DNA of 47,882 nucleotides from an uncultured Lachnospiraceae bacterium (lineage in GTDB: Bacteria > Bacillota > Clostridia > Lachnospirales > Lachnospiraceae), in the NCBI GenBank assembly GCA_947625755.1, contig CANQPJ010000015.1, forward strand, positions 1 through 47,882, written 5' to 3'. This document shows positions 165 to 33,796 of the stretch, piece by piece. How positions within the stretch are numbered: position 1 is the stretch's first letter; each line of letters opens with the position of its first letter. The translations under genes were made by a program, and so were the position numbers. A model generated the notes under the pieces. That model ran no database searches and was not told the DNA's origin. It was given only the letters and a program-made list of their open reading frames with translations.

Positions 165-575
165 CTAGTTACATTTGCATCCGCTAGGGTTAAATGCATA
201 GAAGTTCTTTTTATTTAATTCTTCGGTCAGAAGTCTGAGCGCTTCACCAAATCTCTGGAAATGAACGATTTCTCTTTCCCTGAGGAATCTGATAGGGTCA
301 CAAACTTCATTATCTTTTACTAATGTCAAAATATTATCATATGTTTTTCTTGCTTTTTGCTCTGCTGCCATGTCTTCAAATAAGTCCGCAATCGGATCGC
401 CTGACGATTGAAATTCCGTAGCCTGGAACGGTACTCCGCCGGCAGCCTGCGGCCACACGCCCAGAGTATGGTCAACGTAATATTTTTCAAATCCTGCAAT
501 GTCCGTGTCATCACATGGAAGATCTTTGACAAGTTGATGAACAATGGTTCCAACAATCTCAAGGTGACTCAGCTC
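165..575 (-). CDS. cotJC: 3' part of interrupted cotJC (spore coat protein, Mn-catalase-like)
   Basis: Open frame from the attL core to TAG, about 136 codons including the core codons, with no start of its own. It carries the CotJC C-terminal half: SHLEIVGTIVHQL, the WPQAAGGVPF stretch, the REREIVHFQRFGEAL helix and the FYAFNPSGC tail. CotJC belongs to the manganese-catalase/ferritin-like superfamily and is an inner-coat component. The 5' half lies beyond the prophage at 33791-33988. The break falls within the TEEL|SHLE stretch, separating the Glu and His of an ExxH metal-ligand motif, so neither half should bind the dimetal site. Excision would give a ~200-residue protein, near the usual family size. 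Confidence 0.93.
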   Translation of the reverse strand, partial: ELSHLEIVGTIVHQLVKDLPCDDTDIAGFEKYYVDHTLGVWPQAAGGVPFQATEFQSSGDPIADLFEDMAAEQKARKTYDNILTLVKDNEVCDPIRFLREREIVHFQRFGEALRLLTEELNKKNFYAFNPSGCKCN

Positions 576-599
576 ATTCGGTGTTTGACTATATCATTT
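561..599. other. attL: left prophage-host junction
   Basis: Host cotJC runs to the core CAGCTC (570-575); phage sequence follows. The phage arm carries TGACTATATCATTT (586-599), the exact reverse complement of AAATGATATAGTCA at 33771-33784 beside the right core. The core is only 6 bp, as expected for a large serine recombinase, which needs just a central dinucleotide of identity. Confidence 0.85.
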
Positions 600-655
600 G
601 TTAACATTTTAATAGGTAGAAAGTAATAATAAACTGCTTTTTTACTATTTTTATC

Positions 656-702
656 ACACATATGCCTTCCGAGGATTAATCCTGAAGACATATGTGTTTT
701 TT
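656..702 (+). terminator. Plus-strand terminator near attL
   Basis: Stem ACACATATG / CATATGTGT with an inner CTTC/GAAG pairing, followed by six T on the plus strand. No plus-strand gene precedes it in the integrated state. In the excised circle it lies about 130 bp downstream of the integrase, so it is probably the integrase terminator of the circular form. Confidence 0.7.
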
Positions 703-709
703 CTCTTTT

Positions 710-895
710 TTAAGGTTTGCCACAGTCCAAACACTTGTCTAAAATATATTGATTAACACTTTTGCCTTCTGCATCTGCTTTTTTATTTAATATATTTTTT
801 TCTTCCGCTGTCATTCGAACCGTAACCATCACTTTATTTTTCATATACTTTTTATACCTTTTCGCTTGTTTTTCATCATAATATTTGCCACTCAT
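710..895 (-). CDS. Ribbon-helix-helix (Arc/MetJ-like) small protein
   Basis: 61 residues from the ATG at 895, which has GGAGG 11 bases upstream; an in-frame TTG at 913 is less likely. The N-terminal part is rich in Lys/Tyr (DEKQAKRYKKYMKNK). Then comes VMVTVRMTAEEKNIL, a typical RHH beta strand and helix, and GKSVNQYILDKCL, the second helix. Such proteins bind DNA as dimers. It is the first phage gene next to attL and would sit next to the integrase in the circular form. Repressor, accessory and recombination-directionality roles are all possible; the sequence does not decide between them. Confidence 0.75.
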   Translation of the reverse strand: MSGKYYDEKQAKRYKKYMKNKVMVTVRMTAEEKNILNKKADAEGKSVNQYILDKCLDCGKP

Positions 896-936
896 TGGCT
901 GCTGCACCTCCAAATTTATAAATCTTTTTTACATTT

Positions 937-1026
937 TTATCTTTTAAATAACTGGCAAATCAAAACTAAAGTAATAATACTTAACACTATGCTAATTATA
1001 GATAAACTTATATTTAATATCTCCAT
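937..1026 (-). CDS. 29-residue hydrophobic peptide
   Basis: Short ORF with a strong ribosome site (TGGAGG, 6 bases before the ATG at 1026) and stop TAA at 937. Nearly the whole peptide is one hydrophobic helix (Ile/Leu/Val/Ser) ending in a basic FKR. This fits a single membrane-spanning peptide of the kind seen in type I toxins or small phage membrane proteins. No family recognised; the call rests on the ribosome site and composition. Confidence 0.5.
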   Translation of the reverse strand: MEILNISLSIISIVLSIITLVLICQLFKR

Positions 1027-1088
1027 AATAAACCTCCAAAATAAATAATATAATTGCTCTTTATATTTTAATATGTTATACTTGTACC

Positions 1089-1111
1089 AGCAAGGGGATT
1101 TCTCCCCTGCT
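1089..1111 (-). terminator. Hairpin after the 41-residue peptide gene
   Basis: Stem AGCAGGGGA / TCCCCTTGCT around a GAAA tetraloop, 2 bases after the stop at 1113. The T-run is missing, so it may be a weak terminator, an mRNA-stabilising hairpin or part of an antisense-regulated transcript. Confidence 0.5.
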
Positions 1112-1112
1112 G

Positions 1113-1238
1113 TCACATCAGCGATTTAAGTAAGTTGACAAGGGCATTTATCATATTTACAATCGCTGTACAGAGAAGAATTGACTTTATTTTTTTATCG
1201 TCGTTCTTCTCTTTTTTTGTATGTCTGTCCCTGTTCAT
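1113..1238 (-). CDS. 41-residue peptide, charged N-terminus and hydrophobic C-terminus
   Basis: ORF from the ATG at 1238 (AAAGGAG ribosome site) to TGA. Residues 1-18 are almost all charged (KKEKNDDKKIK). Residues 19-41 form a hydrophobic or amphipathic helix (SILLCTAIVNMINALVNLL). It has its own near-perfect promoter with palindromic sites just upstream and a hairpin directly after it, so it is a self-contained transcription unit between the RHH gene and the endolysin. Toxin-like or lysis-accessory roles are possible; no family recognised. Confidence 0.55.
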   Translation of the reverse strand: MNRDRHTKKEKNDDKKIKSILLCTAIVNMINALVNLLKSLM

Positions 1239-1264
1239 TTATCTGTACTCCTTTCTTTAGATTT

Positions 1265-1319
1265 GTTAAAGTATTTCTTTAACTATCTTTATTATACACT
1301 ATATGCTAGCATATGTCAA
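1265..1319 (-). promoter_or_regulatory. Consensus sigma-A promoter with two palindromes
   Basis: On the minus strand TTGACA (1314-1319), a 17-base spacer and TATAAT (1291-1296) match the vegetative consensus exactly. The spacer contains the perfect palindrome ATATGCTAGCATAT. GTTAAAG-n5-CTTTAAC (1265-1283) lies at the transcription start region. Both look like operators, or the second like a 5' mRNA hairpin. It drives the 41-residue peptide gene. Confidence 0.8.
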
Positions 1320-1327
1320 CACTTTTT

Positions 1328-2050
1328 TTAAATTTTTTTTGTGTTTTTTAGAACAATCCAACGATTGTTACCCTTATATTTAATCTGCCCATATTTATAT
1401 TTTGTTCCTTTGTAAGTTTTGTAAATTCCTATTTTTGTTCCTTTCGGTAATTTAGCTTTAATTTTGGATTTTTTCCCAATTTTATGATAAACCCTTACTT
1501 TTACTTGTTTTTTCGTTGTCTTAACCATATACAATTTTTTAGGAATGAGGAATAAATATTTTACATATTTCTCCCATGCAGCCTTTGTAGTGTTGCCGCA
1601 GCTGCTTTTTGTATTATATGGATCCAGTATTGTTATCTTCTTGCCATCATATTTTTCAATAAAAACAAAATGACCCGACTGTGTCCAAATGGATTTGCCC
1701 ATACAGGCAATTCCAACATATTCACCACTCTTAATCTTTGACAGAAAGTCTTTTACTACTGCTGCATTGGACTTACCATAAAGGCTTGTCCAATTAAGCT
1801 GTGTGGCTCCTTCATATCCATAGTGCTTAAGTGCTTTAATTATCCCGCTGTAATATGTTCCACTACCGTTACAAGCACAACCATTAGCCTGCATCCATTT
1901 TGCTGTCTTTGCTGGAGTTATAGAACTGTCTAAATGATACACAGCATCCGCTACTGCTGTCGGTCCACATCCTGCTGCTGCGATTGTTTCTCCGGAATAG
2001 TCCTGTCTTGCCCATTTGCTGTTGGTTTGCTTAAAATTCTTATAATCCAT
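1328..2050 (-). CDS. Endolysin: C39-like cysteine peptidase with SH3-like tail
   Basis: 240 residues. The N-terminal domain has the papain-like C39-type motif AAAGCGPTAVADAV around residues 25-38 (catalytic Cys). SGHFVFIEKY near residue 128 supplies the His, and ILDPYNT the Asp/Asn. Residues ~175-240 are basic and resemble an SH3b-type cell-wall-binding domain (VKVRVYHKIGKKSKIKAKLPKGTKIGIY). It cleaves host peptidoglycan at lysis. It follows the holin gene by 2 bases, the usual lysis cassette order. Bond specificity (amidase or endopeptidase) cannot be read from the sequence. Confidence 0.85.
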   Translation of the reverse strand: MDYKNFKQTNSKWARQDYSGETIAAAGCGPTAVADAVYHLDSSITPAKTAKWMQANGCACNGSGTYYSGIIKALKHYGYEGATQLNWTSLYGKSNAAVVKDFLSKIKSGEYVGIACMGKSIWTQSGHFVFIEKYDGKKITILDPYNTKSSCGNTTKAAWEKYVKYLFLIPKKLYMVKTTKKQVKVRVYHKIGKKSKIKAKLPKGTKIGIYKTYKGTKYKYGQIKYKGNNRWIVLKNTKKI

Positions 2051-2052
2051 AT

Positions 2053-2406
2053 CTACACCTCACTTTCTTTCTTTTCAGATTGAAGAACATTTATTATTTT
2101 TTTTGGTAATAATCCGGGATGTATTACTTCCAGATTTTCAATGATACTTCCGATTTCATTTAGTATAATGTAGCACATTACCGGCTTGAGTATTGGCATT
2201 GTAAAACCTAAATCTATGTATTTACAGCTGTATTCAATTAATGCGCTCAACATTATCGCTAGAATGTACCCAATCTTGTGATACAGTCCCTCTCTCATTT
2301 TTTGAGATTTATAATTTCCGTTTTTAATGGCTCCAATCAAGCCAGATACTATATCCAAAACCATAAAAATTAAAACTAATGTTGCAATAATGACTAATAA
2401 TTTCAT
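2053..2406 (-). CDS. Phage holin (TcdE/phi29-like holin family)
   Basis: 117 residues with hydrophobic segments at about 4-24, 45-65 and 70-90: a first helix containing DIVSGLIGA, a second after GLYHKIGYILAIMLSALIEY, and a third around CYIILNEIGSIIENLE. The DIVSG and YxxNExxSIxEN patterns mark the phage_holin_4 (TcdE-like) family. It makes the membrane lesion that releases the endolysin. The ATG overlaps the stop of the glycosyltransferase gene (ATGA), so the two are translationally coupled. Confidence 0.9.
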   Translation of the reverse strand: MKLLVIIATLVLIFMVLDIVSGLIGAIKNGNYKSQKMREGLYHKIGYILAIMLSALIEYSCKYIDLGFTMPILKPVMCYIILNEIGSIIENLEVIHPGLLPKKIINVLQSEKKESEV

Positions 2407-3398
2407 TCTGTTTCTCCTTCCTTTCCTGTAATTCTGTTTAACCAGTCGCTAAAAGTTAACTTTTCTAGAAACAACCCCTCTTTATACATCCTATTTTTAA
2501 TTGACATGATTATCTGATTTTTAACATCATAAGGAGTTGATTCATACACTTCTCGAAAGGCGGTCAAGTACTCCTTAAACCTCTTTTCTACATTTTTTTT
2601 ATAGTCCTTGTTTTCATCCTGCCACCATTCATCTTTATTCAATGTATAATAAGCATCAAATATCATTGTTGTGACACAGATTTGTGCCTGATCTAATCGT
2701 CCTCTTTTTAGCAACTCTTTAATTAATGCTGTATTACTTTCCAGCATATTGTTATATGTTTTTAACATATATTTTTCATCGTGCCGGCATACCGATGTAT
2801 CTCTCCATTTCCATAAATAAAATGCTTGTGGAAGATATTTATATCGTTCCCCTGCCATGACTTTGCAAAGAATATTAAAGTAGCTGTCCTCGTGAATTGT
2901 CAATTTATCATTCCACCGTATATTGTTATCTATAAGGAACTGTCTTCTGTGTATTTTGCCATGTACAAATGTAACATCCATATCTCTGTTTATATAGATT
3001 ACTTCTCTTGTAGATGGATATCTCGTTTCCTCGATAAATAAACTTGACATGCTGTCAAATCCACCATTTCGGAGCTCTCTGAATATAATCCAAAGCCCAC
3101 ACGCATTAAAAAACATATCGTCAGCATCGCAGTACATTACATATTCAGCTGTGGCGGAATCCAGGCATTTATTCCGTGCTGCTGAAACTCCTTTGTGTTC
3201 CTGCTCTATGTATTTAATTGCAAAATCGTAATTTTTTAGAAATTCTTCAGACAATTTAATTTCTGACCCATCATTGCAAATAATTACTCCTATATCATTA
3301 AAATCAATGTTTTGCTGAATAGATATACTGTCCAGTAAAGGTTTTATCGTTTCCTCTTTTTCATCGTATTGCGGTATTAGTATTTCTAATTTTTTCAT
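2403..3398 (-). CDS. Family 2 glycosyltransferase carried by the phage
   Basis: 331 residues from the ATG at 3398 (AGGAGG ribosome site). The GT-A fold is clear: LEILIPQYDEKEETI at the start, VIICNDGS, the KGVSAARNKCLDSA motif and the metal-binding CDADDMF. Then follow an acceptor-side HEDSYFN motif and a helical C-terminus. It transfers a sugar from a nucleotide donor. It lies between the repeat-built tail fibre gene and the holin, in the late operon, which suggests modification of the virion (the fibre) or of the host surface. No signal peptide or membrane segment is seen, so the enzyme should be cytoplasmic. Confidence 0.88.
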   Translation of the reverse strand: MKKLEILIPQYDEKEETIKPLLDSISIQQNIDFNDIGVIICNDGSEIKLSEEFLKNYDFAIKYIEQEHKGVSAARNKCLDSATAEYVMYCDADDMFFNACGLWIIFRELRNGGFDSMSSLFIEETRYPSTREVIYINRDMDVTFVHGKIHRRQFLIDNNIRWNDKLTIHEDSYFNILCKVMAGERYKYLPQAFYLWKWRDTSVCRHDEKYMLKTYNNMLESNTALIKELLKRGRLDQAQICVTTMIFDAYYTLNKDEWWQDENKDYKKNVEKRFKEYLTAFREVYESTPYDVKNQIIMSIKNRMYKEGLFLEKLTFSDWLNRITGKEGETE

Positions 3399-3418
3399 TT
3401 TCTGCCTCCTATTGCTTC

Positions 3419-4393
3419 CTATTGAGCTAAAACCCATGATACACTGCCATATCCATTTGCAACTAATATTTTTCCTGCATCTTCTCTGCTCGGAGTTGGA
3501 ATAAGCATTCCGCCATGTGAAGGCATATATGAGTTGAATGTTTGGGAAAATGTGCTATTGAATACAATTTGCGATGCTAAATTACTGATAAAACTGCTGT
3601 TAAACGCTAATGCGTGTGTGAATGTGCTGTTGCCAGCAAAGGCACTAGCAAATGCAGAGCTGTTTAACAACATATTTGCATTTTCAGATATAAAATATGA
3701 ATTAGATGCCAATCTGGCATAATTACTATTGCTTGCCATTGCATCTCCAAGTCCTTTGGAAAACATGCTATTAAATGTAATTTGTGATGCTAAATCCCTT
3801 ATGAAATTGCTGTTAAACGCTAATGCGTGTGTGAATGTGCTGTTGCCAGCAAAGGCACTAGCAAATGCAGAGCTTTGTACCAGCATATTTGCATTTTCAG
3901 ACATGAAATATGAATTAGATGCCAATCTGGCATAATTACTATTGCTTGCCATTGCACTTCCAAGTTCCCGAGAAAATATGCTATTAAATGTAATTTGCGA
4001 AGCTAAATCATTGATAAAACTGTTGTTAAACGCTAATGCGTTTATGAATGTGCTATTGCCGGCAAAGGCACTAGTAAATGCCGAATTGGATGCCAATGCT
4101 GAATATTTGCTATTGTGTGACATATCATATGTTAATATTGAGGTAAAATCGGGGGTTGAAGCTATTTTTGAACCTAATTGATTGACAAAAGTTGTATTCT
4201 GTACAAGTTCTTTTGGTAATGTTTCAATTTTTTCTTCAACAGCTTCGCTTTTCTCTTTTGCATTATCTGCAATATTCTTTGCATCTGATGTGATATTATC
4301 TATTTTGCATAGTCCATCTACAATAGCTCCTCGTACTTCTCTTCCATACTTTGCTTCTTTTATAATTTCAATTTCACTATCTATAATGCTCAT
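3419..4393 (-). CDS. Repeat-built tail fibre / receptor-binding protein
   Basis: 324 residues from the ATG at 4393 (AAAGGAG ribosome site). Residues ~1-75 resemble baseplate-attachment ends (IIDSEIEIIKEAKYGREVRGAIVDGL) followed by coiled coil. Residues ~90-285 contain nearly three copies of a 71-residue unit rich in Asn, Ser, Ala and Phe, with an internal ~10-residue rhythm (AFAGNSTF, ALAFNSNF, LASNSYF), likely a beta-helix or solenoid shaft. The end (REDAGKILVANGYGSVSWVLAQ) matches the short C-terminal module common on Firmicute phage fibres. It lies directly downstream of the tail hub gene. Receptor unknown. Confidence 0.82.
   Translation of the reverse strand: MSIIDSEIEIIKEAKYGREVRGAIVDGLCKIDNITSDAKNIADNAKEKSEAVEEKIETLPKELVQNTTFVNQLGSKIASTPDFTSILTYDMSHNSKYSALASNSAFTSAFAGNSTFINALAFNNSFINDLASQITFNSIFSRELGSAMASNSNYARLASNSYFMSENANMLVQSSAFASAFAGNSTFTHALAFNSNFIRDLASQITFNSMFSKGLGDAMASNSNYARLASNSYFISENANMLLNSSAFASAFAGNSTFTHALAFNSSFISNLASQIVFNSTFSQTFNSYMPSHGGMLIPTPSREDAGKILVANGYGSVSWVLAQ
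3540..4117. repeat. 213-bp tandem repeat inside the tail fibre gene
   Basis: Period 213 bp (71 codons): the string taaacgctaatgcg recurs at 3601, 3814 and 4027. The first two units are nearly identical, while the third has diverged more. The frame is kept, so unit number can change by recombination without breaking the protein. Confidence 0.9.
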
Positions 4394-4412
4394 TTTTATT
4401 AGCTCCTTTCTT

Positions 4413-5498
4413 TTATCTCTTTTGCCTTGCAGAATAATATATCTCTCCAAAAGTCAGCTGTGTATTCCAGACATCATTAATATCACAAGTCAATTGAGTC
4501 AGTTCCAAACGTTCGCTAATCCCAAAGTGAGGGCACGAGATAAGATAAGTGTGATAAATGTCAAATTCTTCCGGAGTTATTCCTAATCCTTTTAAGTCAA
4601 TCGCACTAATTGTGATTGTTTGTTTTATTTTGGAATTATTTTTAAGCCAATTTTGTGCAGCAGATTTTAGTGCACTTGTTGATTTAATGGATTCAAATTT
4701 ATGGACCTTAACTATGCATCCATAGTTTGATATTGCTTCTGCATCATCAACATACATTTCCTCTGTCCCAAGAGTTCCCATTGGCTTATCATCATCTGTC
4801 AGAGGAATACACCTTGTGCACAACTCATCGAAATTGTTTGTGACTGATAGGCTCTGCATATTTGATCCTAATATGATTTCTGTATCTGAATCGCGATTTT
4901 GTAATCCATTCGGATTACATTCAAGGGCTCGATGGGGAATATTCCTTTCATCAAATGTCTCGATTATTTCGTACCTTAAATGATTTGTTAATTGCTCATC
5001 ACATAGTGCTTCTAATGTGGTGCGCTCCCATGATGGTTGATAATCCTTAATTTCCGTTTGAGATGTAAAACTATTCATTGTCAGATATCCATCCTCGTCT
5101 ACCTGATGATTGTGATTTTTTATTAATGTATCGACAATTTTTTGCAATGTATTGTTTATCATGACTGTGTTCATGTAGTTTATTGTATCATTTAGTACAC
5201 CTAACCAGCCCTCACATGTCACTGCTTTGTACATTTTTCCTGAACTGTCAACGTTTAGTGTGATTAGAATTATCCGCCCACTAAATTTCTGTTTTCCATC
5301 CATAGGGTTATTAATTCTTACAGATGTCTTAAATTCATGAAGTAAATCATACCCAATGTTATCCGGATATATGTTAAAAGTAAAACTCGGAGTTTTATTT
5401 TTTTCTTTTGTAAACTTTCCTGTAATTCTGTTTTTGCTTCTCTTACTATTAATGACGATATAATTCAGATCACCATTGTTTATGGTCACGTTATACAT
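4413..5498 (-). CDS. Tail hub / tail-associated protein (baseplate)
   Basis: 361 residues, placed between Dit and the fibre, the usual position of the Tal/hub protein. The N-terminus (MYNVTINNGDLNYIVINSKRSKNRITGKFTKEKNKTPSF) and the central WERTTLEALCDEQLTNHLRYEIIET segment resemble the hub fold of siphovirus baseplates. The short length means no large peptidase domain, so the exact family is uncertain. Its start overlaps the Dit stop. The C-terminus runs into the upstream region of the fibre gene. Confidence 0.75.
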   Translation of the reverse strand: MYNVTINNGDLNYIVINSKRSKNRITGKFTKEKNKTPSFTFNIYPDNIGYDLLHEFKTSVRINNPMDGKQKFSGRIILITLNVDSSGKMYKAVTCEGWLGVLNDTINYMNTVMINNTLQKIVDTLIKNHNHQVDEDGYLTMNSFTSQTEIKDYQPSWERTTLEALCDEQLTNHLRYEIIETFDERNIPHRALECNPNGLQNRDSDTEIILGSNMQSLSVTNNFDELCTRCIPLTDDDKPMGTLGTEEMYVDDAEAISNYGCIVKVHKFESIKSTSALKSAAQNWLKNNSKIKQTITISAIDLKGLGITPEEFDIYHTYLISCPHFGISERLELTQLTCDINDVWNTQLTFGEIYYSARQKR

Positions 5499-6223
5499 TA
5501 CAACTCCTCTCTTATCATCGATATTGTCATTATATTTTTTTTCATACCTCCTTCAATATTTGTTATGTTGATAATATTACTTCCGGGATATAGTAAAAAT
5601 GATGCTTCTGTTCCTGATGTTAATGTGTATCTCACATTATCAACCATAACTAGTACCCGGTATGCTTCAAATGTGGGAGTAAAAGGTATTGGAACAACTG
5701 AATGGTTATAGATTTCAATATTTTTTCCTACCACAAGTTCAAATTCTGTAGTAGGTACTATTCCATGTTCCAAATCAAAATTATCCCATAACCAATCATT
5801 TGTGTCAGCTGTATTCCATATTTTAAAAGGATAGCATTTAAATGTTATGGTTATCTCGCAAAATCCTCTTTCATTTTCAGCCGGAATGACATTTATACAT
5901 TCTCCGAGAAAGTGATATTCTGGTGTTGCTGTGTCTTGGAGTTCTGCCTTCACTGGCATTAGCAACCAGTTGTTTATTTCTGTAAGCGTAAGCTCCAAAT
6001 CTCGTGTATCGTCCTCAATCAATTGACACGTATATGTTATTTCTCGTTCTTCAAACGTTGGAAATCCTATTACTTCGTCAAAATTGTAAGCTCCACTTTT
6101 ATATGGCAAACTCTGTCTATTATTAATTTTAGCGGGAGGTGATATAGCATACTGATCTATAAATATCTTAAACTGTTCTAAAGCATTAATTTTATTGAAT
6201 ATAAATGTTCTATGTTCATCCAA
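5498..6223 (-). CDS. Distal tail protein (Dit)
   Basis: 241 residues. The pattern near the N-terminus (PPAKINNRQSLPYKSGAYNFDE), EREITYTCQLI, the ITITFKCYPFKIW strand and the C-terminal galectin-like part (YPGSNIINITNIEG) are typical of the sipho_tail/Dit family. Dit forms the ring joining the tail tube to the baseplate. It overlaps the tape measure gene by 8 bases. Confidence 0.9.
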   Translation of the reverse strand: MDEHRTFIFNKINALEQFKIFIDQYAISPPAKINNRQSLPYKSGAYNFDEVIGFPTFEEREITYTCQLIEDDTRDLELTLTEINNWLLMPVKAELQDTATPEYHFLGECINVIPAENERGFCEITITFKCYPFKIWNTADTNDWLWDNFDLEHGIVPTTEFELVVGKNIEIYNHSVVPIPFTPTFEAYRVLVMVDNVRYTLTSGTEASFLLYPGSNIINITNIEGGMKKNIMTISMIREEL

Positions 6224-24162: not shown

Positions 24163-24179
24163 TTTCTAATTCCTCGTTT

Positions 24180-25153: not shown

Positions 25154-25168
25154 TCTTAATTCTTCTCC

Positions 25169-25321: not shown

Positions 25322-25325
25322 GCCT

Positions 25326-25995: not shown

Positions 25996-26067
25996 ATATT
26001 TATTCCTTTCTAATCTAAATAATTGTAAATATTTGCTGATTAATTATGTATTTTTTTATGGCAATCT

Positions 26068-26667
26068 CTAATTAATCCATCTTATAATTGTATTATCATG
26101 AAACCCTTTCTCCCAAACAAACCAGGCATATGCTACTGCACTTGATTTGTACTTTTCAAATTCTCCATTTTTCGCACAATTTAATCTTGAAGAGCTAACA
26201 TATACTACTTTAGGTGGATTCTTTTCAAAAAACTCTTTTCGTTTCTTTCCTTCCAAAAATTGAAGTTTTAAAAACAATGCAACCTTTCCACCTTGTCTGA
26301 TATATTCTAATGCTTTTTGTGCAAATTCAAGGGCATAGCGATATGGCGGATTTGTTATTATATCTCCATCAAAATTAGTAATATTTTGCTTTAAAAAATC
26401 AATAGATTTTTTATTTCCATATCCTCTATATACCAAATCTGTACTAATAACTTCATATCCATGCTCTAATAGAACTTTTGATAAATGCCCTTCTCCACAG
26501 GCACACTCCCAAATTTTGTTTGAAAATTTTTCTTCATTTATTAATAATTCCAAGGCTTTAGGATCTGTAGCATAATAATCATGCTCTTCTCGTTCACCCA
26601 TAGAGTGATTAGATGCTGCCAAAGTTACAAATGTTGCTACTTTATTTCCTGTCCAATCTTTTTTTAT
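26068..26667 (-). CDS. Adenine-N6-type DNA methyltransferase; start codon unclear
   Basis: Class I SAM fold: EERE...DYYATDPKALELLI, WECACGEGHLSKVLLEHGYEVISTDL (SAM motif) and DIITNPPYRYALEFAQKAL (catalytic NPPY), then YVSSSRLNCAKNGEFEKYKSSAVAYAWFVW. The only standard start is TTG at 26622, which has no ribosome site and drops KKDWTGNKVATFVTL. That N-terminal segment (DWTGN...FxTLAASNHS) is characteristic of the family, so translation probably begins upstream; the frame has only near-cognate codons there (ATA 26665-26667, ATT 26689-26691) with AAGGAAGGAG in front. Coordinates use the ATA codon and are uncertain. Confidence 0.8.
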   Translation of the reverse strand: MKKDWTGNKVATFVTLAASNHSMGEREEHDYYATDPKALELLINEEKFSNKIWECACGEGHLSKVLLEHGYEVISTDLVYRGYGNKKSIDFLKQNITNFDGDIITNPPYRYALEFAQKALEYIRQGGKVALFLKLQFLEGKKRKEFFEKNPPKVVYVSSSRLNCAKNGEFEKYKSSAVAYAWFVWEKGFHDNTIIRWIN

Positions 26668-26718
26668 CTTTCTCTGTTCTCCTTCCTTAATTTTTCTTTA
26701 ATAAGGTTTGTCCCTTAT

Positions 26719-28035
26719 CTATTTTCTTAATAATTCATGTGTCCCATTTATCAGCTGCTGTTCCTCATTTGTCACACTAAATCCAAATCTAATCAGGATA
26801 TCTACTAAAATCTTTACTCTTTGAGCGGCACTTTCTTGGTAGGACAAGTGATATGAATACATGTCCGGTATTCTTTCTATATTGATTACTGCCAGCATCT
26901 GATATTCTAAAGAATACTTTTCAAATTTTTCCTTTAACTCTTTTTTAGCTTCCTCTGTCATGCTATACCAACTTTTATCTGTATCTGACATTAGGATATA
27001 TATTTCTGAATTATCAAGCCTTCTGCAATCTGCTATCAGATATTTCCATGCCAAAGAGCAAATATTATTATTCTCCGGTTTTTGCTTCAAAATATCATTA
27101 ATAAATTTCTGTATTTTATCTGCTAAATTCTCCTGTATTAATTTGATTTTTTTTCTGTCCCTTCTAAGTTGCTTTTCCTCCTCCGACACCCCTTTAGATA
27201 TTTCTTCACTTTTTTCCAATTTCCGCATAATATATAGACGCGAATAATATGATACAAAATATAACTGTTCTTTTGACTTTTTTAATGTGACTTTTTCATT
27301 AACATTATCATCTAAATTAAACGATTTGATTTGTTCCCATCCATTTGTCCATGGGCTCACTCCTTCCGGACAGGGTTTTAAATTTCTATCTTTTAATTTC
27401 TTTAAAATTGTTTTCTTATTTTTTTCTCTTTTCTCCTCTGTTACAGCTTCCCTTGCACGAAAAGCAAGATTCTTGGAATCTCTTGCTTCCTTCAGGACTT
27501 TATTTCTGGTTCGTACACTTTCAATCTTTTCCAGCTCGATTAGATCCTTAAACGACAATTGAAAATCGCTATCATTTTCTTTCTTTTGTAGTTCTTTCTG
27601 ATTTAGTTTTGCAATATTTAATCTGTGATAAACTGTGGTCTTGCTAAATCCGGTCTTTTCTGCAATCTCATCCACACTCTTTCCAAAATCCAGCATCATC
27701 TGAAACCCCTGCGCCTGTTCATATATCGTCAGATTATTTCTCTGCATATTTTCAAGCATCATTACTTCGAATTGTTCCTCTTCTGACATTTCCGTAATAA
27801 TACATGGTACTTTTTCAACTCCGGCTTTTTCAGCCGCGGCACGTCTCCTGTGTCCTATGACTGCCATATATTCTCCCGGATGTTCCTTGCTTTCAACTAC
27901 AGTCAGATTCTGCATTACACCTTTCACTTTAATCGACTCTGATAATTCTTCTATATCTCCCAGATCCTTTCTTGGGTTGTTTGGATTTGGATGTATTTTT
28001 TTCACTTCAATATATTTCAATTCTTTATTTTCCAT
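26719..28035 (-). CDS. ParB-like DNA-binding protein
   Basis: 438 residues. ParB N-domain: YIEVKKIHPNPNNPRKDLGDIEELSESIKVKGVMQNLTV, VIGHRRRAAAEKAGV, and helix-turn-helix NLTIYEQAQGFQMMLDFGKSVDEIAEKTGFSKTTVYHRL. The C-terminal ~200 residues are helical and charged. Phages use ParB-like proteins as CTP-dependent clamps, methylase partners or nucleases. No ParA gene is present, so plasmid-style partition is unlikely. The protein lies in the modification/replication region. Confidence 0.85.
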   Translation of the reverse strand: MENKELKYIEVKKIHPNPNNPRKDLGDIEELSESIKVKGVMQNLTVVESKEHPGEYMAVIGHRRRAAAEKAGVEKVPCIITEMSEEEQFEVMMLENMQRNNLTIYEQAQGFQMMLDFGKSVDEIAEKTGFSKTTVYHRLNIAKLNQKELQKKENDSDFQLSFKDLIELEKIESVRTRNKVLKEARDSKNLAFRAREAVTEEKREKNKKTILKKLKDRNLKPCPEGVSPWTNGWEQIKSFNLDDNVNEKVTLKKSKEQLYFVSYYSRLYIMRKLEKSEEISKGVSEEEKQLRRDRKKIKLIQENLADKIQKFINDILKQKPENNNICSLAWKYLIADCRRLDNSEIYILMSDTDKSWYSMTEEAKKELKEKFEKYSLEYQMLAVINIERIPDMYSYHLSYQESAAQRVKILVDILIRFGFSVTNEEQQLINGTHELLRK

Positions 28036-28047
28036 TTTTATTCTCCT

Positions 28048-28413
28048 TTACACCGAAATTACATTACTACGACTTTCTGTGCTTACCACGGATATTTCAC
28101 CTTTACTATTTGCACTAACCTTAATTTTCACACACGCTCCAGTATTAATATTGATAGATTGAATCGTGCCCTTCGCGATAAATGCTATTGCCTGTTTTGC
28201 TAAAACTGCTGCCTCCGGCATATTATTTCCCCATGCTTCATCTATCTGGTTTGACGCTTCCTGAATATTCCGGTAATGCACAGCATCCTCACAATCACAC
28301 TGCATTGTTGCAATATGATTCAGCTTCTCTTGGGATGCATCACACGCAGGATCTAACTGCTGGGTTTGTCCGCAAAATATACAAACCCCTGTTTTCATTT
28401 CATTATCTGCCAT
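28048..28413 (-). CDS. Small zinc-binding phage protein
   Basis: 121 residues. CIFCGQTQQLD near residue 11 and CDCEDAVHYRNIQEA near residue 38 suggest a Zn ribbon; the C-terminal part (GTIQSININTGACVKIKVSANSKGEISVVST) is beta-rich. Its stop lies 12 bases before the parB-like start. Function unknown. Confidence 0.7.
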   Translation of the reverse strand: MADNEMKTGVCIFCGQTQQLDPACDASQEKLNHIATMQCDCEDAVHYRNIQEASNQIDEAWGNNMPEAAVLAKQAIAFIAKGTIQSININTGACVKIKVSANSKGEISVVSTESRSNVISV

Positions 28414-28888
28414 CTTCTTTCTCCATCCTTTCTAAAATCTTAATCACTTTTGATATTGTTGCTGTTCCTTCGTTGGCAATTGTATTATTCAGTGTCTCTT
28501 TTGCTTCCTGTATGACTTTCTTTAGATGATTATTTTCTTCACACAATTCCCGGTACAGCTTGTCCATCTCAATTATCTGTTTTACTGTCATGTCTGCTGC
28601 CATCAGTTGATGTATATCTTCATTATCCAATCCAACGATTTGCATGTTTTCATTTTTTGCTACAAAGAAATTGCCCTTGATGATGATTCCGTTATATATT
28701 TCTTTGTTGGGTTTCAACTTGGATGGTAACTCATACATCTTGTCGTTTACTAAATATACAAACCCCCGAATCTTATCATGGCTAATTATGCTGATAGATT
28801 CACCTACTAATTCCTTAATAGAATTTGGACCGTCTATTTCTTTAATTACCATGTTTTTTCCGACTTCATAATATGCTACTTTCATCAT
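28403..28888 (-). CDS. DUF3846-like protein with a coiled-coil tail
   Basis: 161 residues. Residues 1-95 follow the DUF3846 pattern (KEIDG...ELVGESISI...VYLVNDK...LPSKLKPN...IKGNFFVA). Residues ~105-160 form an amphipathic helix (TVKQIIEMDKLYRELCEENNHLKKVIQEAKETLN). DUF3846 proteins are common in phages and mobile elements, role unknown. Confidence 0.75.
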   Translation of the reverse strand: MMKVAYYEVGKNMVIKEIDGPNSIKELVGESISIISHDKIRGFVYLVNDKMYELPSKLKPNKEIYNGIIIKGNFFVAKNENMQIVGLDNEDIHQLMAADMTVKQIIEMDKLYRELCEENNHLKKVIQEAKETLNNTIANEGTATISKVIKILERMEKEDGR

Positions 28889-28986
28889 TTATCCTTTCCA
28901 TTGACTATACACAGGCACAGCAGAAAAATCCCTGCTGCAAGACCAACTACAAATCCTATCATTCCACTTATTAAATATCCCATCAT
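28885..28986 (-). CDS. 33-residue membrane peptide (DUF3789-like)
   Basis: MMGYLISGMIGFVVGLAAGI then FLLCLCIVNGKDK: a Gly-rich membrane helix and a short basic end, as in DUF3789 proteins of Firmicute phages. Its start overlaps the stop of the preceding gene, and its TGA overlaps the next start (ATGATG), so it is embedded by coupling on both sides. Confidence 0.6.
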   Translation of the reverse strand: MMGYLISGMIGFVVGLAAGIFLLCLCIVNGKDK

Positions 28987-29261
28987 ACATCTATTCCTAA
29001 CGCTTTTAAGCTCTCAAAATCCTTATCCTCTTTTAATTTGAGGATTAACTTTTTTTTATGTTCCCTGTCAGAAACACATCTTTCACACATGCAGTGTTTT
29101 TTCATAAATTCATAGTTTAACTGTTCCTGCTGTTTTTCTGTAATATTTTTCCATATGCTATATACAGGACCAGTGTTGCCAGAATATATGCAACAAGCCT
29201 GATGCAGATATTTCCATGCATGAGCTTCTGTTGAAGCTCCCATATGGTTACTGTTACTCAT
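28983..29261 (-). CDS. 92-residue phage protein
   Basis: MSNSNHMGASTEAHAWKYLHQACCIYSGNTGPVYSIWKNI..., a helical protein with CMCERC near residue 56 and a Lys-rich C-terminus. Probably binds Zn. Overlaps both neighbours. Confidence 0.6.
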   Translation of the reverse strand: MSNSNHMGASTEAHAWKYLHQACCIYSGNTGPVYSIWKNITEKQQEQLNYEFMKKHCMCERCVSDREHKKKLILKLKEDKDFESLKALGIDV

Positions 29262-29553
29262 AACTACCTCCTAAAATATAATTTAGCATCTTATCAATTT
29301 GAGTCATGATATATGCAATCAATCCTATAGTAGTCATATAATAGGCTGCACATTGATACCAATTATTAATGGATAACTCTACTCTTATCCGTACTATCAA
29401 TGCGACCATTACTCCTATTACAATGTTTTTAAAAATATTTAGCCACTTGTAATTTCTGCTGGTTTTCTGGTATAATTGTATTAGTGATACCCTTTTGGGT
29501 GTTGGAGTGGTGTTTAGTGGAGTGAACACCACTTCTTTTTTTTCGTTATTCAT
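29254..29553 (-). CDS. Two-helix membrane protein
   Basis: 99 residues. The N-terminal ~35 are soluble and polar; two hydrophobic segments follow at about 40-60 (WLNIFKNIVIGVMVALIV) and 70-90 (YYMTTIGLIAYIMTQI). Its start overlaps the preceding ORF. Unknown role. Confidence 0.65.
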   Translation of the reverse strand: MNNEKKEVVFTPLNTTPTPKRVSLIQLYQKTSRNYKWLNIFKNIVIGVMVALIVRIRVELSINNWYQCAAYYMTTIGLIAYIMTQIDKMLNYILGGSYE

Positions 29554-29692
29554 TATTTCCTCCTAAGTCCTTCTGATAAGGCTTATGCCTAAAATGTTTT
29601 ACTGCTGCCTTTCTGTTTAAATCTGATATTCTCTCTTTTTTTTCAAATTCCATGAGTTTAAACAGTTCATCCATTTTGTTTTGTTCTTCCAT
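29546..29692 (-). CDS. 48-residue helical phage protein
   Basis: MEEQNKMDELFKLMEFEKKE followed by RISDLNRKAAVKHFRHKPYQKDLGGNNE. GAGGAGG 2-6 bases before the ATG at 29692. Charged, helical. Not assigned. Confidence 0.55.
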   Translation of the reverse strand: MEEQNKMDELFKLMEFEKKERISDLNRKAAVKHFRHKPYQKDLGGNNE

Positions 29693-29707
29693 CTTCCTCC
29701 TCTACTC

Positions 29708-29872
29708 TTATCTGCTCTTATTCTTCATTCTTGTTTTGGTTTCATTTGATTGTAGGCTAATTAATACTCCAATTTGATGAAGAATTGCATCTACTTTCCT
29801 TTTATCCGACACAATATAGTCGTCATGGATTGTTACCTTTGCATTTCCTATTTTTATTTCTTCGACAACCAT
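29708..29872 (-). CDS. 54-residue phage protein
   Basis: MVVEEIKIGNAKVTIHDDYI then VSDKRKVDAILHQIGVLIS and a basic end. AAAGGAG before the ATG at 29872. A short beta hairpin then a helix; no family known. Confidence 0.6.
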   Translation of the reverse strand: MVVEEIKIGNAKVTIHDDYIVSDKRKVDAILHQIGVLISLQSNETKTRMKNKSR

Positions 29873-29905
29873 TGTGTCTCCTTTCTATCTCTTTGTTACA
29901 TCTTA

Positions 29906-30007
29906 TTAGTGACTTGCTTGTCTGTTTGCAATAAAATCATTGATCTTTAACTTTTCAATATTAAAAAGACCACATTCTGAACAATTACTTTCACTATATT
30001 TGTAGTT
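29906..30007 (-). other. In-frame extension after the cro stop (readthrough or decayed gene)
   Basis: 33 codons open immediately after the TAA of the 30008 gene, in the same frame: NYKYSESNCSECGLFNIEKL-KINDFIANRQASH. It has a CxxC motif and reads like a real small protein but lacks ATG/GTG/TTG. An ATG-TAA pair directly precedes it, as if codon 2 of a former ORF became a stop. Confidence 0.3.
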
Positions 30008-30268
30008 TTACATTTCATTTACTTCCTCCCTTTTGTTAGTTGATTTAAAATCAACTTTTCTGGCAAAAAAAATTTTATCTCGTATTAAATTAGATAAATT
30101 CAATACTTCTTGCAGAATAAGAATTTCGGACGCCTTAAATTCAGCTTCATTTTTTAACTTTTTATAAAACCCTGCTCTTGTTATTCCCAATTTCTTTGCA
30201 ATAAACGAAATTTTCAAACCAGATTTTTCAATTACCTCATTTAAAAGTTCTACATCGGTCATTTGCAT
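30008..30268 (-). CDS. Cro-like helix-turn-helix regulator
   Basis: 86 residues. Helix-turn-helix: SGLKISFIAKKLGITRAGFYKKLKNEAEF at residues ~16-44. The first early lytic gene, divergent from the XRE repressor, with operator palindromes in its promoter. One operator copy (GTTGATTTAAAATCAAC) lies inside its own C-terminal codons. Probably the Cro equivalent that turns off the repressor. Confidence 0.85.
   Translation of the reverse strand: MQMTDVELLNEVIEKSGLKISFIAKKLGITRAGFYKKLKNEAEFKASEILILQEVLNLSNLIRDKIFFARKVDFKSTNKREEVNEM
30039..30055. promoter_or_regulatory. Fourth operator copy inside the cro coding sequence
   Basis: GTTGATTTAAAATCAAC, the reverse complement of O1, lies in the last third of the Cro-like gene, ~240 bp from O1. 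Coding for VDFKST there, yet a perfect operator, so looping or a roadblock role is conceivable. Confidence 0.7.
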
Positions 30269-30277
30269 CTCCTTTCT

Positions 30278-30378
30278 GTTGATTTTAAATCAACTTTTCT
30301 TTATATTACATCTTTGTTGATTATATGTCAACTCTTTTTTACAAAAATGTTGAATTTAATTCCATGTTATGCTATTAT
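30278..30378. promoter_or_regulatory. Divergent cI/cro promoter region with operators
   Basis: O1 GTTGATTTTAAATCAAC (30278-30294) and O2 GTTGATTATATGTCAAC (30316-30332) share the same half-sites; O3 (30349-30365, GTTGAATTTAATTCC...) is a partial copy. Minus-strand early promoter: TTGACA (within O2), 17 bases, TAATAT; O1 lies between it and the cro ribosome site. Plus-strand repressor promoter: TTGAAT (30350-30355, within O3), 17 bases, TATTAT (30373-30378). So each promoter has an operator over its -35 box, the classic switch layout. Confidence 0.85.
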
Positions 30379-30400
30379 TTTCACATAGAGGTGATTCGTT

Positions 30401-30745
30401 ATGACAATTCAACAAAAAATCGGATTAAAAATAAAGAATTTAAGATTATCATTAGATTATTCACAAACAGAACTTGCACATATGGTTGGATATAAAGACA
30501 AAACTTCAATTGCCAAAATCGAAGCTGGTAAAATTGATTTGCCCCAAAGCAAAATTATAGCTTTAGCAGATGCATTGCGAACTACGCCATCTTATTTAAT
30601 TGATGCTAAAGTGCAAGTAAAAAATAATAATATAGAACCACAGATCGACACTCTTGCTGCCCACTTTGAAGGTGAAGAATTTACGGACGATGAACTAAAT
30701 GAAATCAAACAGTTTGTAGAATTTGTTAAGAATAAAAGAAACTAA
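30401..30745 (+). CDS. XRE-family phage repressor (cI-like)
   Basis: 114 residues. Helix-turn-helix near the N-terminus: IKNLRLSLDYSQTELAHMVGYKDKTSIAKIEAGKIDLPQSKIIALADAL. C-terminal ~40 residues are acidic helices for oligomerisation. GAGGTG ribosome site. It maintains lysogeny from the operators on both sides; its neighbour is an ImmA-type protease, as in ICEBs1-like and Firmicute prophage switches where the repressor is cleaved. Confidence 0.92.
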   Translation: MTIQQKIGLKIKNLRLSLDYSQTELAHMVGYKDKTSIAKIEAGKIDLPQSKIIALADALRTTPSYLIDAKVQVKNNNIEPQIDTLAAHFEGEEFTDDELNEIKQFVEFVKNKRN

Positions 30746-30805
30746 AACCCAATAAATAGATATCGTATATGAGTATGATGAACATATGATAAGGGGGTGA
30801 TAAAA

Positions 30806-31264
30806 TTGACTTATGAACAATTATTATCTGAAAATTCTGATGTTGATGTAGGATACAGGCATTTTGACAGTGATAATATAAAAGGTCTGTATTTCAACGG
30901 AAATATAGCAATAAACGAAAATATAGATACATATAATGAGCGTATATGTATTCTGGCAGAAGAATTAGGACATCACCACACATCAAGTGGCAATATTATT
31001 GACATGAATAATGCTTCAAACAGAAGACAGGAACAAATCGCCCGGATGTGGGCTTATAAAAAATTAGTATCAATAGATTCATTAATTGATGCATTTGAAC
31101 ATCACTGTCAGGGAAGATATGAAACCGCTGAATATTTAGGAGTCACAGAACAATTTTTAATTGAATGTATCAACGCATATATGCATAAATATGGTTGTTA
31201 TGTAAGATACAAAAAATACATTCTGAAATTTAACTACAATTCGATTTGTGTGATAAAGAATTAG
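30806..31264 (+). CDS. ImmA/IrrE-type metallopeptidase
   Basis: 152 residues from the TTG at 30806 (AAGGGGGTGAT ribosome site); a GTG at 30797 would overlap that site. Gluzincin-like motif LAEELGHHHTSSGNI, which is the ImmA variant of HExxH, followed by R(E)QEQIARMWAYKKLV with the third ligand Glu. In ICEBs1 such a protease inactivates the repressor ImmR. Sits directly after the repressor. Confidence 0.85.
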   Translation: MTYEQLLSENSDVDVGYRHFDSDNIKGLYFNGNIAINENIDTYNERICILAEELGHHHTSSGNIIDMNNASNRRQEQIARMWAYKKLVSIDSLIDAFEHHCQGRYETAEYLGVTEQFLIECINAYMHKYGCYVRYKKYILKFNYNSICVIKN

Positions 31265-31288
31265 AATTTTTAAGCAGGAGGACGATTT

Positions 31289-32011
31289 ATGAAAAAACTA
31301 ATATGTAATTTATTAATTATTACGATTTTGCTATGTGGTTGTAATAATAATAAAACTCATGAACATTTATGGAATGGGTGGTATCCATCTGATAATGAAG
31401 CTTACATGGAAAGAAACTGTGCTTATTGTGATGAAATCCAGACCAGAAATAAAACAGAGGCAGATACAACACAATCTACAGAATGTAATCACGAATATGG
31501 CCAGTGGAAAATAATAAAGAAACCTACTTGTGATGCTGACGGTGAAAAGGTAAAAACTTGCAAAAAATGTAATCAAAAATACACCTACTATACAGAAGCG
31601 AGAGGACATAAATGGAGTTCATGGAAAATTACCAAACCTGCAACATATAGCAGGAAAGGTATAAAAGAAAAAATATGTAGTAGATGTAAAAAAATTAAAA
31701 CTAAAAAATATTCTCTCCCAGTAACATTAGGAATGGAGAATGCTTTAGAAAGTGCTTTTTCCTATTTAGATTCTTCTAGTTTTTCGAAAAGTGGCTTGAT
31801 TAAACAATTACAATTTGAAGGATATTCTCAAAGTGAGGCTGAATATGCGGTTAATCAGTGTGGTGCCAACTGGAACGAACAGGCTGCAGAAACAGCACAG
31901 TCCTATTTAGATTCTTCTAGCTTTTCGAAAAGCGGCTTGATTAAACAATTACAGTTTGAAGGCTTTTCTTACTCTCAAGCACTTTATGGAGTTAAAGCTG
32001 TGGGATATTAG
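31289..32011 (+). CDS. Ltp-type superinfection-exclusion lipoprotein with zinc-ribbon-like repeats
   Basis: 240 residues. Lipobox LLCGC at residues ~14-18 gives a lipid-anchored exported protein. Residues ~22-140 contain three copies of a module H-x-W/Y...W...P-T/A...G...C-x-x-C (CAYC, CKKC, CSRC). Residues ~152-240 contain two copies of the Ltp repeat (SYLDSSSFSKSGLIKQLQFE then SEAEYAV or SQALYGV). In streptococcal phage TP-J34 the lipoprotein Ltp, also encoded between integrase and repressor, has two such repeats and blocks injection by related phages by targeting the tape measure protein. The middle Cys modules are extra here. Start preceded by AGGAGGACG. Confidence 0.85.
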   Translation: MKKLICNLLIITILLCGCNNNKTHEHLWNGWYPSDNEAYMERNCAYCDEIQTRNKTEADTTQSTECNHEYGQWKIIKKPTCDADGEKVKTCKKCNQKYTYYTEARGHKWSSWKITKPATYSRKGIKEKICSRCKKIKTKKYSLPVTLGMENALESAFSYLDSSSFSKSGLIKQLQFEGYSQSEAEYAVNQCGANWNEQAAETAQSYLDSSSFSKSGLIKQLQFEGFSYSQALYGVKAVGY

Positions 32012-32050
32012 AGCATGACTTAAATATAAAAAGTTATAAAATAAAAAAGA

Positions 32051-32130
32051 GACCAGCCAATAGCAACCAGCCTCAAAGTGATAAAATCACTACTCACAAC
32101 AGTATTTTATCATTTTTGAGACATCTGGTC
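32051..32130 (+). terminator. Large hairpin between the exclusion gene and the integrase
   Basis: Outer GACCAG / CTGGTC, inner stem CTCAAA-GTGATAAAAT / ATTTTATCAT-TTTTGAG (32072-32120) with a 16-base loop. It could terminate the lipoprotein transcript so that integrase expression is separate, or be a structured RNA. Confidence 0.6.
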
Positions 32131-32189
32131 AAATGCTGGGTGTTATTTTTATACTCAAAAATCATAAAATTAACAGAGGAGATGATAAT

Positions 32190-33776
32190 ATGGCATACTG
32201 TATTTATTTGAGAAAATCAAGAAAAGATGTAGCATTAGAAAAAGGTAGTGACTGTGATACCTTAACCCGACATAAGAACACTTTAATTGAATTAGCGCAT
32301 AAGCAATTACTGCCTATAGAGGAGATTTACGAAGAAGTTGTGTCTGGTGACAGCATTGCAGCACGTCCACAAATGCAAAGATTGTTAAACGATGTAGCCG
32401 AAGGAAAATGGAACGGTGTTCTTGTTATGGAAATAGAACGTCTTGCCAGAGGTGATACTTCCGATCAAGGGATTGTAGCAAAGACATTTACATACTCTAA
32501 CACACTCATCATCACGCCTATGAAAACATTTAATCCGGCTGATGAGTTCGATCAGGAATACTTTGAATTTGGACTCTATATGTCAAGACGTGAATACCAA
32601 ACCATCAAAAGACGTATGCATAACGGAATGATTGCCAGTTGTAAGGAAGGGAATTATATTCATAATACACCACCATTCGGTTATGACAGAATTAGAAACC
32701 AAGGTAGTAAAGGTTTTCGATTAGTGCCTAAACCAGGCGAATCTGAAATAGTAAAGTTAATATTTGAGTGGTACACAAAAGGTGTACTACAGGATAACGG
32801 AATGTATAAGCCGATTGGAACCAGTCTCATTGCCCACAAATTAAATACAGAGTATACTATCAAGCCTAAAAATGGTGTTTGGACTGTAGCAACAATTTCA
32901 AGTCTACTTCGGAACGAACATTATCTTGGTTATATTGTGTATGGAAAAAGAAAAAGAGAGAAAGTATTACAAAACGGTGTTCTTGTCGACAAATGGAAAC
33001 GCTATGATAAAGGAGAATATGAACTATATCCTGGCAAACACACTGCACTTATTACACAAGAAGTATTCGATTTAGCCCAAGAAAAACTAGCAAAAAATCC
33101 ACGCAGACCTAGTAAAGGTATTACCAATCCTCTGGCTGGAGTTATTAAATGTGGTCTCTGTGGTCGTTCCATGTATCGCAGACCATACCAAAAACGTGGT
33201 CAAGCGGCGTCGCTTATTTGTTCTGAAAAGACCTGCCATAATGTATCGGCAAAGTTTGAACTTGTAGAAAATGCTCTTCTAAATGCAATTGAGCACTGGA
33301 TAAGTGGATATGAGATTCAAGTAAATGCCAACATTATTGACACATCAACACTGGATGCAAAAATCAGTCTATTAAAGGAATCCGAAAAACAGCTTGACAA
33401 TTTAAGAAATCAGTTGGAAAGAATATATGACGCATATGAAAATGGAATATATGATACTACTGCATTTCTTACAAGGCAAAAAATGACACAAAATAAAATT
33501 TATGAAACAGAACACTCAATTGCTAACTTGAATGATGAAATAAAAAAAGAAAGGGAATTTATTGACAAACAGGAACAACTCATACCAAAAGCAAAGAAAT
33601 TACTGGATATCTACAAAAAAACTGACGATGTTCAACTTAAAAATGACTTGCTAAAGTCTATCTTTGAAAAAGTGGTTTACACAAAAAATGCTAATGGTCA
33701 TTACAAGAATCAGAGGCAAGATGACTTTGAACTTGCCTTGTTTCCTAGGATTCCAAAAAATTTTAAATATAAATGA
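32190..33776 (+). CDS. int: Large serine integrase
   Basis: 528 residues from the ATG at 32190 (GAGGAGATGAT site). Resolvase domain: CIYLRKSRKDVALE with the catalytic Ser, EEVVSGDSIAARPQMQRLLNDVAEGKWNGVLVMEIERLARG. The recombinase domain follows (IVKLIFEWYTKG... ISSLLRNEHYLGYIVYGKRKR), then a zinc ribbon (IKCGLCGRSMYRR...LICSEKTC) and a coiled coil (EKQLDNLRNQLERIYDAYENG). The gene ends inside the attP arm. It integrates by attP x attB crossover; excision needs a directionality factor. In skin and SPbeta elements such enzymes rebuild a sporulation gene. Confidence 0.97.
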   Translation: MAYCIYLRKSRKDVALEKGSDCDTLTRHKNTLIELAHKQLLPIEEIYEEVVSGDSIAARPQMQRLLNDVAEGKWNGVLVMEIERLARGDTSDQGIVAKTFTYSNTLIITPMKTFNPADEFDQEYFEFGLYMSRREYQTIKRRMHNGMIASCKEGNYIHNTPPFGYDRIRNQGSKGFRLVPKPGESEIVKLIFEWYTKGVLQDNGMYKPIGTSLIAHKLNTEYTIKPKNGVWTVATISSLLRNEHYLGYIVYGKRKREKVLQNGVLVDKWKRYDKGEYELYPGKHTALITQEVFDLAQEKLAKNPRRPSKGITNPLAGVIKCGLCGRSMYRRPYQKRGQAASLICSEKTCHNVSAKFELVENALLNAIEHWISGYEIQVNANIIDTSTLDAKISLLKESEKQLDNLRNQLERIYDAYENGIYDTTAFLTRQKMTQNKIYETEHSIANLNDEIKKEREFIDKQEQLIPKAKKLLDIYKKTDDVQLKNDLLKSIFEKVVYTKNANGHYKNQRQDDFELALFPRIPKNFKYK

Positions 33777-33796
33777 TATAGTCAGAGTTCCAGCTC
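33771..33796. other. attR: right prophage-host junction
   Basis: Phage arm AAATGATATAGTCA (33771-33784) and GAGTTC precede the core CAGCTC (33791-33796), then host cotJC. The arm is the exact inverse of 586-599. Joined as a circle, attP would be the two arms 22 bp apart around the core; the dyad centre falls between T and C of the core, predicting TC as the exchanged dinucleotide. Confidence 0.85.

Follow-up and report, generated by a model that had tools for sequence, protein, structure and literature searches.

The skin elements, which interrupt sigK, encode a serine recombinase and are excised in the mother cell. For the SPβ prophage in spsM of Bacillus subtilis, excision has been demonstrated by experiment: a complete phage with a serine recombinase lies in a mother-cell gene whose parts are rejoined in frame when it leaves (PMC4191935). 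In Bacillus cereus, gerE harbours gin, described as a non-phage element that restores this sporulation gene by means of serine recombinases; gin encodes three recombinases and depends on GirX (PMC5595907). The prophage-like element yin, in yabG of Clostridium botulinum, is reported as unique to one strain, and the same paper cites vfbin in spoVFB as a further element in a sporulation gene (PMC10747680). Here we describe a window of 47,882 nucleotides (the whole of the stretch analysed, positions 1 to 47,882 of contig CANQPJ010000015.1, assembly GCA_947625755.1) from an uncultured Lachnospiraceae bacterium, in which the coat protein gene cotJC is divided by a prophage. The elements in sigK, spsM, gerE, spoVFB and yabG are of the same kind as those in cotJC. 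We consider it likely that the window holds a temperate siphophage at one of three recurrent positions in cotJC (site B), and that it belongs to a class of elements carrying large serine recombinases (LSRs) that are excised precisely in the mother cell.

The window resembles the SPβ case in that a complete phage with a serine recombinase occupies a mother-cell gene that would be rejoined in frame on excision, but the gene and the phage are different, an SPβ-like LSR being 30.0% identical to that of the window. It shares with yin the setting of a prophage-like element in a sporulation gene, although the cotJC elements recur widely. The small cotJC elements are, like gin, not phages, but several of them consist of one LSR with cargo (SulP, LrgAB or LD-carboxypeptidase). 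Skin acts as the gate of a sigma factor, whereas CotJC belongs to the late coat proteins. In Clostridioides difficile R20291, a gene adjacent to the prophage phi027 is stated to be homologous to CotJC; the passage in question places this homologue beside the prophage and gives no description of a split gene or of its restoration (PMC11222575). In a term search, cotJC was not mentioned in PMC4191935 or PMC5595907, and the open-access literature searched yielded no paper that treats cotJC as an interrupted gene or as a hub with three sites.

In the window genome (2.25 Mb, 99.5% complete), the single cotJC is interrupted within its GTEEL|SHLE motif by the prophage of about 33.2 kb (Table 1). The cotJ operon reads leftward, so that cotJA, cotJB and the first ~66 codons of cotJC are followed by the prophage and then by the remainder of the gene. 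The preliminary description of this DNA had stated that the two halves share CAGCTC in phase and rejoin to about 200 codons; this was borne out, as fusion over the core, which stands in the same phase in both halves, gives a stop-free CotJC of 200 codons. A shared in-phase run of 6 was reached in ~2% of 120 other registers. An intact cotJC elsewhere, which the same description had named as a finding that would count against it, was sought in this genome with the Pfam family Mn_catalase (PF05067), and the search matched just the two halves. The arms flanking the cores form a perfect inverted repeat (12/12 in scoring, 14 by direct reading of the sequence), which marks the attP of a serine integrase; an exact search of viral contigs with the window attP gave 0 matches. 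Comparison of the prophage with PHROGs covered 20 proteins, 2 of them without a match, and recovered the modules for head and tail formation, lysis, lysogeny and integration of a temperate siphophage, a tail protein being among the matches in addition to those in Table 1; the earlier impression that the rest of the phage is intact agrees with its gene content. Matches to SpoIVA and Spo0A, two sporulation markers, are also present in the genome. By its anatomy, the insertion is an intervening element: a sporulation gene is divided, a serine recombinase is encoded, a short core and att arms are found at both ends, and the joined frame is open.

Rejoining in frame was considered as evidence of programmed excision and rejected. 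Because a serine integrase exchanges attP and attB strands conservatively, site-specific integration always yields a lossless join; the join shows insertion by an integrase and says nothing about programmed excision. The key question is instead whether the split cotJC works. The synonymous sites of the window cotJC are saturated relative to its genus, and the functional state of this copy must therefore be judged from its intact motifs and from related genes.

The split of cotJC in the window is real and belongs to a far wider pattern. We screened 299 family genomes (labelled G) for PF05067, and 59 genomes with weak or multiple matches were re-examined together with the window genome (G000). 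Matches were found in 184 of the 299 genomes, and 50 of the 184, the window genome counted, carry the gene in at least two pieces. A further 5 genomes have one partial piece only, 3 have a frameshift or weak paralogue only, and the other 126 were judged near full-length from their E-values, although a few may be partial. The candidate split in G037 was rejected as a frameshift with no element. Breaks fall at three sites on the profile of intact CotJC, each in a conserved motif: site A near position 32 (GGPDGE), site B near 65 (GTEELxH) and site C near 136 (AAEQKA). Site A accounts for 13 split genomes and site B for 23, with 2 more probable cases at B in which contig ends cut the pieces; 8 genomes are split at C and 4 at two sites, these being A and C in G059 and A and B in G111, G194 (its middle piece inferred) and G259. 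In the window genus, cotJC was matched in 10 of 23 genomes, 6 at full length and 4 split (G000 at B, G282 at C, G312 and G313 at A); in genus g265, 33 of 37 genomes have a match, and the 11 split copies among them comprise 8 broken at C and 3 at B (one of the latter represented by its N-half only). Joins are unclean in G097, G131, G320 and G324, with odd or extra residues, and cores of just 2–3 bases occur in G155, G282, G036 and others. SpoIVA was matched in 49 of the 50 split genomes, compared with 122 of the 126 others and 16 of the 115 without PF05067; the sole split genome without a match, G030, is 86% complete. By this one marker, split genomes are as sporulation-competent as the others.

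Some loci show further irregularities. Two copies of the cotJC C-half lie 3 kb apart on one contig of G060 (L021:643-1137 and 4183-4671), and an additional cotJC fragment (profile 172-200) lies downstream of the C-half in G337 (L113:3256-3351). Several contigs end some tens of bases from cotJC junctions (G360:C101 and C54, G172:C27, G016:C332, G060:C68), a pattern that may stem from a mixture of excised and integrated forms or simply from repeats.

Element size was taken as the distance between pieces on one contig, which gave 27 elements in a sample that favours short ones; 13 are below 10 kb and 9 above 20 kb. Those of G256 and G259B span 2.4–2.5 kb and hold a single LSR and little else. Others carry cargo: a sulfate permease of the SulP type (G155, G161), HAD and LrgAB proteins (G122), an LD-carboxypeptidase (G284), a Spo0A-like regulator with an HTH-S24 protein (G030) or a BspA-type repeat protein (G270). 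The site-A element of G161 (L012:3025-9774) encodes, besides its sulfate permease, a DUF2935 protein and a 1,228-aa multicopper oxidase that, by its size only, is reminiscent of spore manganese oxidases. Inverted att arms matching at 10 or more of 12 positions were found in 39 of 63 junction pairs, against 2.1 expected from mismatched pairs, and perfect 12/12 arms in 15 of the 63, against 0.0 expected. These counts use wide arm offsets; a narrower offset gave 12 of 63 pairs at 10 or more, against 3.66 expected, and missed the repeat of the window.

The recombinases and regulators of some elements are unusual. Two recombinases, L004:1177-1998 (273 aa) and L229:502-1362 (286 aa), stop just past the Recombinase domain and have no zinc ribbon; they would be either dead or released from directionality control. 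In the element of G264 (L010:857-2423), the intact LSR has beside it the remains of another recombinase gene, now broken, an arrangement that looks like a stacking of elements. In one genus, the cotJC elements of all three species, G030, G358 and G359, encode a second Spo0A-like response regulator (L007:1062-1868, L229:2321-3115 and L228:1639-2424), and each species has another Spo0A. The second Spo0A-like gene of G000 was considered as element cargo and rejected, since it is a normal paralogue on the chromosome that has no neighbouring LSR.

Nearly every junction has an LSR gene, in one orientation or the other, whose 3′ end is directed towards a cotJC half (some loci being counted twice). 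In a tree of 53 LSR sequences, those of sites A and C form groups and those of site B form several separate groups, the window LSR falling in group B1 and three viral LSRs between the B groups. LSR groups largely follow the insertion site. The exceptions are G173, first labelled A, which clusters with B and whose piece borders both sites; the second, outlying recombinase of G012; and the site-C LSRs of G322 and G338, which fall apart from the main C group. When bacterial and archaeal genomes were scanned with the B1 alignment, at least 554 relatives were obtained, and the best 80 loci were examined. A cotJC piece is present in the examined flank of 67 of these 80, other Bacillota included, among them Paenibacillus lacisoli, Alkaliphilus transvaalensis (ATCC 700919, a cultured strain with a small element at L196), Caproiciproducens galactitolivorans, Sedimentibacter acidaminivorans, Tissierella sp. 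P1 and Clostridium carboxidivorans P7, the last of which also has a second, intact cotJC. Among the 13 loci without cotJC, L189 lies at a gene of the ATP-synthase alpha/beta family, 3 stop no more than 145 bases from the LSR and 7 have no identified target. In the remaining two, L214 (LSR end 4177) and L224 (LSR end 2960), LSRs of the window group adjoin a gene with LysM and GH18 domains, which we take to be of the YaaH/SleL type and which is likely to be another spore gene split by the LSR family of the window. On viral contigs, no cotJC piece was found near any of 3 viral relatives of the window LSR (37–39% identity; 0/3). A scan for CotJC, with patterns that lie in the C-terminal part and leave N-halves unsampled, found 65 viral contigs that encode a relative, and in 57 of these the match begins at a split site (20 at A, 33 at B and 4 at C).

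Whether cotJC is constrained while split can be judged where related species share an element. G122 and G360, of one genus, both carry LSR, HAD, LrgB and LrgA genes in the same order in site B. The element proteins are 66–78% identical, with a synonymous divergence (pS) of 0.62–0.77, compared with 0.61–0.71 for neighbouring host genes; the cotJC C-halves are 94% identical at the amino-acid level, with a nonsynonymous divergence (dN) of 0.044 and a ratio of nonsynonymous to synonymous divergence (omega) of 0.035, and the two LSRs are sisters (support 0.989). In the genus of G030, G358 and G359, the cotJC elements have Spo0A-like, HTH-S24 and LSR genes in common, at 57–82% amino-acid identity and pS of 0.69–0.79, whereas the cotJC N-halves are 92–94% identical, with omega of 0.035–0.068; the LSRs of G030 and G358 are sisters (support 1.000). 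The simplest reading is that in both genera the element has been inherited since a common ancestor and that cotJC has been strongly constrained throughout. The comparison shows that the split gene is under purifying selection in both genera; the split itself, the LSR, the att arms and repeated insertion at three sites are likewise shown. Measured against a fixed panel, mean dN is 0.224 for 54 joined split genes and 0.238 for 20 intact ones. Conserved cotJC halves beside a shared element argue for a working gene and hence for excision, and a lineage that keeps the element yet needs CotJC would have to remove it in a cell without progeny, most simply the mother cell. In B. subtilis, cotJ is a mother-cell operon.

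In the mechanism that we propose, the siphophage would integrate by its own LSR at an attB inside cotJC, at the TEEL-H motif of site B, as one member of a broad class of residents of this gene that ranges from complete phages down to 2.4-kb remnants. Precise excision in the mother cell would allow CotJC to be made, and the forespore chromosome would retain the element. Excision would be triggered by a directionality factor or by LSR expression and would be confined to the mother cell. Each time a spore forms, the insertions in cotJC are probably removed, and for this particular phage we infer the same from sequence. Excision at the level of the class is favoured because insertions recur at three sites, because some elements are reduced to a recombinase or to cargo, because att arms are intact and because omega is low where elements are orthologous. 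The preliminary description had offered two readings, an element excised during sporulation or a plain lysogen; its argument from the frame cannot separate them, but the comparative evidence favours the former for the class.

Several observations weigh against this explanation. The window phage looks complete, and ordinary induction would also excise it. In the assembled genomes compared, none of the elements showed an excised junction. The sigma-E-like signal upstream of LSRs is modest, 24 of 149 regions scoring at least 12 against 9.55 when shuffled, duplicates included. In the G030 genus, the pS of the elements exceeds that of the host (cotJB, 0.57–0.64) and the G359 LSR is not firmly a sister of the others, so repeated acquisition is possible there; the cotJC C-half of G358 was not found. 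In g265, LSR DNA is more alike between species (for example, 87.5 and 89.8%) than the cotJC region is (81.5 and 80.9%), which indicates recent element movement, so that the constraint on cotJC in this genus does not require selection during the split state. Relative to a 502-position model, the LSRs of several small elements end early (G155 at 282, G358 at 287, G270 at 350, G360 at 352, G359 at 362 and G122 at 380), and some of these may be dead.

Negative conversion by phage insertion is known, as in hlb of Staphylococcus, and in plain lysogeny the LSR phages and islands would simply target the conserved DNA of a dispensable coat gene, CotJC being lost until the element leaves. The complete phage in the window would fit such a scheme, as would the patchy distribution within genera (4 of 10 species with cotJC split in the window genus and 11 of 33 in g265), the recent movement in g265 and the existence of free phages with related LSRs (up to 43.6% identity; 42.0% for a Dorea phage from sewage). 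We nevertheless regard it as unlikely, given the low omega on cotJC halves in species with an orthologous element, the retention of att arms by LSR-only and small cargo elements, and the lack of a dN excess in the 54 split genes. Frequent entry and exit in vegetative lineages, with selection during empty phases and no developmental control, would account for the horizontal signal in g265 and for the use of three different sites by species of one genus. It is harder to reconcile with the shared cargo and gene order of G122 and G360, and likewise of the three species of the G030 genus, both at a divergence near that of the host, and we judge this fast turnover to be quite improbable. An assembly chimera or sequencing artefact can hardly be entertained: contig ends do occur at junctions in some other assemblies, but nothing was found in favour of an artefact, both window junctions, whose core and att arms match, are contained in a single contig, and the same arrangement is seen in many independent genomes.

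Table 1. Features of the split cotJC locus and its prophage in window coordinates.
Feature	Coordinates	Strand	Remarks
cotJC C-terminal half	165..575	-	SHLEIVG... to stop; PF05067 profile 63-198, E 2.5e-24
Core CAGCTC, C-half side	570..575		
Prophage between cores	576..33790		~33.2 kb
attP arm TGACTATATCATTT	586..599		inverted repeat with arm at 33771..33784
Holin	2053..2406	-	PHROGs
Distal tail protein Dit	5498..6223	-	PHROGs
Tape measure protein	6216..9590	-	PHROGs
Major head protein	12502..13695	-	PHROGs
Head maturation protease	13708..14415	-	PHROGs
Portal protein	14418..15587	-	PHROGs
Terminase large subunit	15596..17302	-	PHROGs
Transcriptional regulator, candidate lysogeny repressor	30401..30745	+	PHROGs
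Metalloprotease	30797..31264	+	PHROGs
Possible sigma-E-like promoter TTATTTT-13-CATAAAAT	32143..32170	+	before LSR; weak
LSR (integrase), 528 aa	32190..33776	+	Resolvase, Recombinase and Zn ribbon domains; points at cotJC N-half
attP arm AAATGATATAGTCA	33771..33784		overlaps LSR gene end
Core CAGCTC, N-half side	33791..33796		
cotJC N-terminal half	33791..33988	-	~66 codons, ends ...DIGTEEL; PF05067 profile 1-67, E 1.3e-18
cotJB	33988..34248	-	PF12652; directly upstream of cotJC N-half
cotJA	34245..34730	-	PF11007; upstream of cotJC with cotJB

The promoter motif in Table 1 was read against what we take to be the sigma-E consensus. Elsewhere in the prophage, a small protein near the left end (710-913) matches a mobilization protein of a NikA-like family, and three DNA methyltransferase genes lie at 22522-24989 and 26068-26622.

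Returning to excision in the mother cell, we also favour, with more reserve, a wider reading in which cotJC would be a docking gene across spore-forming Bacillota. Several LSR lineages would have specialized on three metal-ligand motifs, and the phages and cargo islands that they bring, sometimes two per gene, would all be lost from the genome of the mother cell alone, as a recurrent bacterial kind of programmed DNA elimination. For annotation, a split cotJC should not simply be taken as a pseudogene. If excision in the mother cell holds for the class, these elements would offer a natural series from a full phage to a single-recombinase element, together with many LSRs of known attB site, and the low-cost residence of phages and cargo islands in a coding gene would be explained. 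About a quarter of the sampled family genomes with cotJC carry the gene in pieces, and what is known from a few model cases (sigK, spsM, gerE, spoVFB and yabG) would become a common trait.

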